DNA of 64,000 nt from an uncultured Candidatus Puniceispirillum sp. (GTDB lineage: Bacteria > Pseudomonadota > Alphaproteobacteria > Puniceispirillales > Puniceispirillaceae), in contig CAJJBY010000009.1 of the NCBI GenBank assembly GCA_905182545.1, positions 1-64,000 of the forward strand, given 5' to 3'. Under the pieces are notes generated by a model that worked only from the letters and a program-made list of their open reading frames with translations, ran no database searches and had not been told where the DNA came from. Of the stretch, positions 6,235-14,352 are shown piece after piece. Within the stretch, counting starts at the first letter, position 1. The number at the start of each line of letters is the position of its first letter. The position numbers and the translations under genes were made by a program.

Positions 6235-6370
6235 GATCGGTAAATGGTGATCATATTTCACAAGCGCAAGCCCCTTTGCATCATCACCCCGCAAAAACCT
6301 AGTGACAGGTGATGATTTTGTTCCTAGGCTTATCCCCATCGTTGCAACAAATTGAAAAGGAGGTGATCTG

Positions 6371-6451
6371 ATGTCTAGTGATAAACGGTTTGGTTCGAAG
6401 GACTTGGTTTCTGTTTGGCGGGCTGAGGAGCAGCCTTCTGGGTGCGCCTAG
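6371..6451 (+). CDS. very small ORF (26 codons) with extended Shine-Dalgarno sequence
   Basis: An ATG at 6371 opens 26 codons, beginning MSSDKRFGSK and ending at TAG 6449-6451. It is preceded by AAGGAGGTGATC at 6357-6368, a 12-base match to the 16S rRNA 3' tail and far longer than any other site in the window. A strong intrinsic terminator follows at 6507-6535. The unit stands alone between two minus-strand genes. It may encode a short peptide, be a leader peptide without a downstream gene, or be a small RNA whose SD-like segment acts in another way. TGATCT (6364-6369) can pair with AGATCA (6450-6455), which could mask the ribosome site. I do not recognise the peptide. Confidence 0.5.
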   Translation: MSSDKRFGSKDLVSVWRAEEQPSGCA

Positions 6452-6506
6452 ATCAGAAATTGACGGGCATTTCCCCGTAAAACAGGTCTTTTGATGACCG
6501 ATCACG

Positions 6507-6535
6507 AAAAGGGGGGCCAAAACCCCCCTTTTTTT
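6507..6535 (+). terminator. intrinsic terminator of the small 6.4-kb unit
   Basis: GGGGGG at 6511-6516 pairs with CCCCCC at 6523-6528 around a CCAAAA loop, followed by seven T residues. Four A residues before the stem would let it also stop minus-strand transcription. It lies 55 bp after the small ORF. A second small hairpin (ACGGG...CCCGT, about 6462-6478) precedes it. Confidence 0.8.
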
Positions 6536-6597
6536 CTGCCTTCGCCTTGTGGCGACAGATTTTGATTATTGGCCTTTTCGGACGCTTGCCCAAAGCC

Positions 6598-13763: not shown

Positions 13764-14150
13764 CTGTCAGATGGTCGGGTGACTGCTGCCCCAAATCGTA
13801 AGATATGGGGGAGAGGAAAGTCCGGGCTCCACAGGATCAGGATGCCGGGTAACGCCCGGCGGGGGCAACCCTAGGGAAAGTGCCACAGAAAATATACCGC
13901 CATGGCGTGCCATGGTAAGGGTGAAATGGTGCGGTAAGAGCGCACCGCCGGTCTGGCAACAGAACGGGCATGGTAAACCCCATCCGGAGCAAAACCATAT
14001 AGGGACATGGGAACGGCTTGTTCGTTCAGATGCGGTCCTGCATCATATCCGGGTAGGTTGCTTGAAGCGGCTGGTAACAGCCGTTCTAGATGAATAGTCG
14101 CCAATGCTGGTAACAGCGTTACAGAACCCGGCTTACAGACCATCTGACAG
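13764..14150 (+). ncRNA. rnpB: RNase P RNA, bacterial class A
   Basis: The catalytic RNA of RNase P, which matures tRNA 5' ends. The ends are set by helix P1: CTGTCAGATGG at 13764-13774 pairs exactly with CCATCTGACAG at 14140-14150, followed by six T residues as terminator. The universally conserved GAGGAAAGTCCGGGCTCC (P3/P4 region) begins at about 13811, the ACAGAAAATA-type element is near 13885, and the GGTAACAGCC and AACCCGGCTTACAGACC 3' elements are present. Length is about 387 nt. In many alphaproteobacteria rnpB lies directly upstream of mraZ, as here. Confidence 0.97.
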
Positions 14151-14352
14151 TTTTTTCTATGCGTGATTTCCCAAAATCACCCTACAGGCATTGGCCTGAG
14201 ACAAGCTTTCCAGAAAATAGAACAAAAGCAGAACATAATATATAAAACTAATATATATTGTTATGATTCAGTGGGTTGTTGAATATTCCTTATTTTTAAT
14301 ATTAACTTACTGAAATAATTAGCTTTTCCCATAAAGAACAAGTCAAACCCCA
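14151..14352. other. A+T-rich spacer between rnpB and the dcw promoter
   Basis: No gene is visible. The rnpB U-tract is at 14151-14156. A small hairpin GTGATTT (14163-14169) with AAATCAC (14174-14180) follows. At about 14235-14265 there is an imperfect A/T palindrome (ATAATATAT, short centre, ATATATATT) that could be a protein-binding or melting site. The region is clearly richer in A+T than the coding sequence around it. Confidence 0.5.

Follow-up and report, generated by a model that had tools for sequence, protein, structure and literature searches.

A family of short alphaproteobacterial RNAs with an extended Shine-Dalgarno sequence, probably related to CC2171, in which translation rather than the encoded peptide may be under selection

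The window, by which we mean the whole stretch of 64,000 nucleotides that was analysed, carries a compact unit of approximately 190 nt on the forward strand (6346-6536), composed of a leader, a Shine-Dalgarno (SD) sequence, a short open reading frame and a terminator. The two flanking ORFs, which by sequence reading alone are glutathione-peroxidase-like and rhodanese-like, both lie on the opposite strand, the next gene downstream being convergent, and the unit thus stands alone, as a preliminary description of this DNA had proposed. The sequence around the SD and the start codon is TTGAAAAGGAGGTGATCTGATG. Since the 16S gene of the host ends in ...GGCTGGATCACCTCCTTTCTAAGG, the extended SD AAAGGAGGTGATC (6356-6368, forward strand) pairs perfectly with the 3' tail of the 16S RNA of the same genome over 13 bases; the match to the 16S tail that had been described is thus real, and it is 13 bases long rather than 12. 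The genome of 2,006,995 bases contains two exact copies of the 12-mer AAGGAGGTGATC, one at this locus and one antisense to the end of the 16S gene; the position and conservation of the match exclude a chance origin. The ORF (6371-6451, forward strand) starts with ATG at 6371-6373, runs for 26 codons to a TAG stop at 6449-6451 and encodes the peptide MSSDKRFGSKDLVSVWRAEEQPSGCA; across related loci its length is kept and its peptide sequence is not. A Rho-independent terminator follows on the same strand (6507-6536, stem 6507-6532), identified from sequence and fold, with the arms AAAAGGGGGG and CCCCCCTTTT and a T-run, so that start, codon number and terminator are all found where they had been placed. 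The RNA folds much better than its own shuffles (z -4.86).

Searches at the DNA level gave a match in 38 of 61 genomes, this one counted. Matches from the same genus cover nearly the whole unit, whereas the alignments from other genera span only some 20-60 bases around the SD and the start codon; an ORF of 24-30 codons was present at the SD block in all 30 of the 30 loci retrieved. The pattern GGAGGTGATCNNATGTCNAGT, with at most two mismatches, was found in 75 of 386 genomes of the class (this one counted) and its reversed control in 5/386, and therefore a few of the two-mismatch matches are due to chance. AAGGAGGTGATCNNRTGTC was found exactly in 78/386 class genomes, again with this one counted, and no match to its reversed control was seen in the rows for these 386 genomes. 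Among named genomes there were at least 120 matches, and among the 80 matches listed, 76 are alphaproteobacterial by reading and four are labelled “Proteobacteria bacterium”. In another draw of class genomes the pattern was present in 22/41, and a covariance model built from 27 sequences of the branch of the window (R1) finds the family in 34/115, with this genome included in both counts. The prevalence within the class is thus partial, and the copy number is usually one per genome. One genome (G071) has two copies of different branches on contig C1, at 805114 and 2922049 (L079 and L080), the ORFs being 24 and 18 codons long. Four further versions (L221, L222, L228 and L232) lie on contigs from a viral collection and have ORFs of 14-16 codons of the VSY.KRCHLA type; they are either prophage-borne copies or bacterial flanks.

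In the other classes, 109 genomes gave four matches, three of which are by reading the coding starts of an oxidoreductase-like protein. The fourth, L276 (G453:C4:2095900-2096400), has TAAGGAGGTGATCATATG, an ORF of 18 codons (MSRVKVFGQAAMSEGRSS), a terminator and, by eye, a CGAG/CUCG pairing, and it is matched by model R1 with an E value of 8e-11. It is the sole match among 59 genomes of its own order. L276 is likely a true relative outside the class, perhaps acquired by horizontal transfer.

The loci were collected by SD-start patterns that contain neither the ORF length nor the pairings described below, and the conservation of the SD block is therefore partly the result of selection by the search. 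A first scan of 100 loci included six without the relaxed motif, and viral loci were excluded from the counts. Of the 207 loci that had sufficient flanking sequence, 115 were retained as non-redundant; four of these, with ORFs of 56-69 codons (L032, L035, L088 and L144), which are perhaps other genes, were counted as misses in the test of ORF length and then excluded, leaving 111. In three of these four (L032, L035 and L144) the SD-start block heads ORFs of 56-58 codons with signal-peptide-like starts, which are either other genes or cases of a captured start region. A terminator is present at 103/111 loci, to be read against noisy controls of 49/111 on the opposite strand and 30/110 upstream. 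When conservation in relatives, which the preliminary description had put forward as a check, was examined in this way, the SD and the terminator proved to be kept and the peptide did not. Upstream of the unit, a putative sigma-70-type promoter was read from the sequence on the forward strand (6302-6330), with GTGACA at 6302-6307, a 17-base spacer and TAGGCT at 6325-6330. This promoter is missing from the list that a consensus promoter scan produced for the window, and an upstream TTGACA match with 5-6 of 6 bases was found at 40/111 loci versus 13/111 when shuffled, which leaves the promoter with weak to moderate support. The leader element AACAA (6346-6350, forward strand) lies two bases farther upstream of the start codon than its counterpart in the consensus of the class, where positions -23 to -19 are A91 A90 C80 A82 A90 percent in the 111 loci; AACAA belonged to the pattern that recruited L101-L220, and its conservation is therefore partly due to selection as well.

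A scan of pairing registers showed that positions +7 to +13 of the ORF pair with the bases that immediately precede the terminator, forming a helix that we call P1. In the window its 5' strand (6378-6388, forward strand) lies in codons 3-6 of the ORF and consists of GTGAT (6378-6382), an AAA bulge and CGG (6386-6388), and its 3' strand (6498-6505) lies directly before the terminator and consists of CCG (6498-6500) and ATCAC (6501-6505). Perfect 6-mers were found in 33/103 loci at +7..+12 and in 37/103 at +8..+13, compared with 1.3-1.7% when the arms were swapped between loci and, after shuffling of the 3' region, with averages of 2.0 and 3.1 among the 103. There are 23 different arm pairs, for example CATTGT/ACAATG, CATGGT/ACCATG and ATGAGA/TCTCAT. 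The test counts perfect 6-mers only, so that the bulged helix of the window is itself uncounted, and at the four offsets examined 53/103 loci lack one altogether. Further into the ORF, +18 to +28 is also enriched, though to a lesser degree (5-17/103 versus about 3%), and the start-codon region from -5 to +6 was a pairing partner in only 0-1 of the 103 loci. The SD core (-12 to -5) has complements near the terminator in 7-9/103 loci versus means of 1.5-3.4, a small excess, so that some loci, a minority, may have a masked SD. Three 18-codon versions of the Rhodobacteraceae type (L107, L174 and L072) contain in their 3' half the sequence CACCTCC, a possible pairing partner for the SD of the same RNA. 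At 99/100 loci the ORF ends before the 3' strand of P1 begins. Eight loci without a found terminator were excluded from the register tests (leaving 103) and three more from the ensemble folding (leaving 100). A pairing across the ORF had been proposed in the preliminary description between TGATCT and AGATCA (6364-6369 and 6450-6455); a pairing of this kind does exist but its place is different, the conserved helix being that of GTGAT (6378-6382) with ATCAC (6501-6505). The original candidate was rejected, with AGATCA changed to AGAGCA in L006 and to AAAACA in L009, both from the same genus.

Thermodynamic folding was less decisive than the register scan. In the ensemble, P1 has a mean pairing probability of 0.36 per base in the window and exceeds 0.5 in 45/100 loci, while the SD has a mean unpaired probability of 0.40, and folding alone thus does not give a clean picture with an open SD and a closed P1. 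Duplex energies between the start of the ORF and the pre-terminator region gave median z values of -1.21 against other loci and -0.93 against shuffles, which we think are weak because related loci have similar arms; this test was superseded by the register scan for perfect 6-mers.

The layout of a short leader ORF followed by a terminator is also that of a leader or attenuator acting in cis on a gene downstream, an element that would then just happen to stand alone in this genome, and at some loci, for example L105 and L135, a same-strand gene seems by reading to be close downstream. We give this explanation hardly any credence. Neighbours were counted at 49 loci with long flanks, 15 of which are overlapped by a mechanical ORF of at least 90 aa, and at the 46 with neighbours on both sides the downstream ORF has the same orientation in 19 and the opposite one in 27; no fixed downstream gene was found among these 46 loci, the next gene in the window is convergent, and the 3' strand of P1 precedes the terminator stem instead of lying within it. 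A conserved gene downstream on the same strand is thus not a feature of the family.

Besides P1, the RNA of the window has a hairpin with a covarying stem and a CAGC or CAAC loop (AGGAG-CAGC-CTTCT, 6426-6439, forward strand), which we call the CARC-loop hairpin. The motif GAGCAGCC resembled a conserved piece of the peptide (EQP) and turned out to be this hairpin. It occupies frames 0, 1 and 2 in 24, 2 and 12 of the 38 loci with the motif, four of which have stems of a single pair, and a hairpin with a stem of at least five pairs is present at only 32 of the 111 non-redundant loci. The loop begins 54-60 nt after the start codon, with one extra case at 29 (in the branch of the window the hairpin is placed at about 58 nt), and in three 18-codon versions the hairpin lies after the stop codon. 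The commonest tetraloops are CAGC (25 loci) and CAAC (7), the next being found at five. Loop bases CAGCC and a 16S GGCUG could form a five-base link, for which the 16S pattern matched in 1/13 genomes, namely this one. For an alignment of P1 together with the hairpin, 31 loci were hand-picked mostly for the CARC motif, two fell out and L029 and L099 were omitted, which left 27 sequences. In these 27, 89.4% of the cells are paired and the covariation is 0.572, whereas the best slid register gives 0.153 and shuffles give 0.243 (0.572 being reached in 0/500), figures that lean towards the hairpin by selection of the loci, P1 being unselected. Pairs changed on both sides number 10 versus 7.8, a level reached by 19/500.

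At the Rfam cut-offs nothing was found at the locus, the only match being RNase P RNA elsewhere in the window (bacterial class A, 13767-14151, 337 bits), and no match was found in 40 related loci. The locus scores 13.6 bits against RF01867 (CC2171), for which the gathering cut-off is 75, and by covariance-model score it is therefore not a member, although the alignment spans the model from its first to its last position. A search of the genome of the window with RF01867 gave no match at E<=1. In 20 genomes bearing GTG starts, hand-picked from those with the motif, the best RF01867 match is the motif locus in 20/20 and lies over the cut-off in 11, and at E<=1 the model also matches 6/14 named control genomes, one of them over the cut-off; weak RF01867 matches, that of the window included, therefore mean little. 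Other weak Rfam matches (Atu_C4 with E 0.0082, CrcZ, sraA, ar9 and others) were rejected as far below the cut-offs and mostly over the terminator. In the opposite direction, model R1 recognises 19/19 of the RF01867-type loci given to it (E 7e-6 to 1e-12), three of them over 30-36 bases of the SD block only, a block that supplies much of the score elsewhere. It also matches 15/15 other motif loci, including those of Rhodobacteraceae and Sphingomonas, all 34 loci having been hand-picked from the motif-bearing ones. Given this cross-recognition, the branch of the window and CC2171 look like branches of one family, the RNA of the window having diverged too far to score formally as RF01867.

A comparison of features points in the same direction. 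CC2171 shares the 5' block (cAAcaAucGAAAGGAGGUGAUCCAGUGUCU) and a 3' hairpin with the RNA of the window. The block of RF01867 reads AACAA-GAAAGGAGGUGAUC-RUGUCU, and the window has AACAAATTGAAAAGGAGGTGATCTGATGTCT, with two extra bases before the SD and CT for CC; the start of the CC2171 consensus, cAAcaA, aligns from 6346. By our own translation the CC2171 consensus encodes GUG plus 21 codons before UAA. A closing helix joins the codons after the start to the bases before the terminator in both, as CAUuGuC/GaCaAUG in CC2171 and as GTGAT/ATCAC at the corresponding place in the window, although the RF01867 alignment itself does not assign this helix to the window, where most of its pairs are marked as non-standard. 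The RNA of the window differs from CC2171 in having the CARC hairpin and in the sequence of its P1 strands. CC2171 is catalogued in Rfam as an uncharacterised sRNA gene, in an entry where we saw no mention of an ORF, and the Caulobacter sRNA reportedly comes from Landt et al. 2008. In the accessible part of the Rfam 15 report, RF01867 is among the families with an improved structure and gained one additional covarying pair (PMC11701678). The literature we could consult, which includes few of the subscription papers, gave no description of an ORF in the CC2171 family or of its spread through the class.

The length of the ORF is conserved. Its stop codon comes after 16-36 codons at 111/115 non-redundant loci, the shortest ORF having 18, whereas in the two alternative frames this happens at only 25/115 and 22/115, and a Markov null gave a fraction of 0.230 with a maximum of 0.348 in 200 rounds. 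RNA structure alone has no means to explain a bias that is specific to one frame, and the frame is therefore very probably translated. This also bears on the reading that the RNA is an ordinary trans-acting, base-pairing sRNA, whose seed would lie in the loop of the CARC hairpin, in the strands of P1 or in the 3' region and whose ORF would be incidental. CC2171 is catalogued as an sRNA, and the hairpin loop is conserved. A Mesorhizobium relative, the RF01867 sRNA MH_s33, is listed with a 215-nt RNA-seq transcript in the accessible part of PMC5596092. Structure alone cannot, on the other hand, yield closure in 111/115 loci against the expected 23%, a bias absent from the other frames, and we regard an sRNA with an incidental ORF as unlikely.

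The amino acids, in contrast to the length, show no sign of being kept. In 55 disjoint sequence pairs, in which no sequence was used twice but some pairs share branches, the differences at codon positions 1, 2 and 3 were 132, 133 and 123, the synonymous fraction was 0.254 versus 0.275 expected, and the dN/dS-like ratio was 1.12. As a positive control, the neighbouring rhodanese-like gene from the same genomes gave ratios of 0.04-0.17 in seven comparisons (with differences of, for example, 10/7/58). Between L001 and L006, 8.6% of the ORF stretch differs, compared with about 20% of the rhodanese-like gene. The start codons of the 111 loci are ATG in 63, GTG in 44 and TTG in 4, and the GTG and TTG starts argue against selection for maximal output. 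A gene for a functional, highly translated 26-residue micropeptide, as suggested in the preliminary description, would accord with the very strong SD, its good spacing and the preserved ORF, and the peptides are indeed recognisable within genera. It is nevertheless largely refuted by the flat codon-position counts and the absence of purifying selection (1.12 against 0.04-0.17), by the best-conserved internal motif, which is the hairpin and is kept across frames and at three loci even beyond the stop codon, by the GTG or TTG starts at 48/111 loci, and by peptides that look unrelated between the main branches, and we consider it very unlikely.

An ORF length that is preserved where the peptide is not suggests that being translated is what matters and not the product. 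The explanation that we favour, with slightly better than even confidence, is a structured, ribosome-recruiting RNA in which translation rather than the peptide is selected and the output is a translation-dependent state of the RNA itself; its role would probably be that of a translation-gated switch. The extended SD would capture 30S subunits. In traversing the ORF, a ribosome would inevitably open P1 and also the hairpin, whose place is within the ORF or immediately behind it, and it would depart ahead of the terminator. Since the passage of the ribosome would unwind P1, the RNA would alternate between a folded, untranslated and an opened, ribosome-occupied form according to the ease of initiation. 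The peptide would be a by-product, and the output could be the stability of the RNA or the exposure of the hairpin loop or the P1 strands to a partner. A narrower version, a ribosome-gated riboregulator that senses the availability of 30S subunits through its near-full complement of the 16S tail and refolds upon ribosome passage, is a plausible but tentative proposal to which we give somewhat less than an even chance. It had already been suggested that the RNA might bind the ribosome, and this fits well with the complementarity to the 16S tail being the most conserved element of the family. In the accessible part of a 2014 study of Caulobacter, ncRNA regions were mostly untranslated and two earlier predicted ncRNAs were translated (PMC4117421), and in Staphylococcus aureus an extended SD pairing close to the start codon is reported, in the portion of that article open to us, to govern initiation (PMC13009471).

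The simplest rival to selection for translation itself is a 30S trap or ribosome sink, in which the over-long SD holds 30S subunits and lowers or buffers initiation elsewhere and the ORF provides a clean exit. In the conserved block, complementarity reaches almost to the end of the 16S tail. L276, the one relative from another class, has TAAGGAGG, which would suit the 16S tail of its host if that host is a gammaproteobacterium. A Sinorhizobium oligonucleotide for the 16S tail, of the same letters, appears in the accessible part of PMC6943124. A trap would, however, have no need for an ORF held at 18-36 codons or for a covarying P1 and a hairpin inside and after the ORF, and a single copy per genome is the usual case; we hold it to be rather unlikely.

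An RNA catalogued as one Caulobacter sRNA thus proves to be widely spread in the Alphaproteobacteria, and its ORF, in which openness and a set length are selected and the amino acids are not, separates “translated” from “coding”. This makes it possible to test directly whether bacteria retain ORFs in order to have them translated. A natural, very long SD together with its start site and structure should also be useful for studying the effects of over-long SD pairing on initiation.

The dual-function sRNAs Spot 42/SpfP and SgrS/SgrT encode functional peptides. In rnTrpL/peTrpL, the small RNA likewise encodes a peptide, peTrpL, to which the accessible part of PMC10117765 assigns a function. The RNA of the window resembles these three in being a small RNA with a short ORF that is very probably translated, but whereas their peptides are functional, its family shows no detectable constraint on the peptide. 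Leader peptides and attenuators have a short translated ORF followed by a terminator and a long-range pairing, and the family has a short ORF, a terminator and a long-range pairing as well; unlike attenuators it has no fixed downstream gene, and there is no competition between its pairing and the terminator stem. In fold-back mRNAs of the hok type, the region of the start codon is paired with the 3' end and the ORF is short. The RNA of the window is similar in that a region near the start pairs with the 3' end and the ORF is short, but it is codons 3-4 that pair, complements of the SD occur in only small excess, and there is no toxin-like conserved peptide. If the proposal holds, a ribosome-gated riboregulator would form a separate category alongside the dual-function sRNAs and the attenuators.
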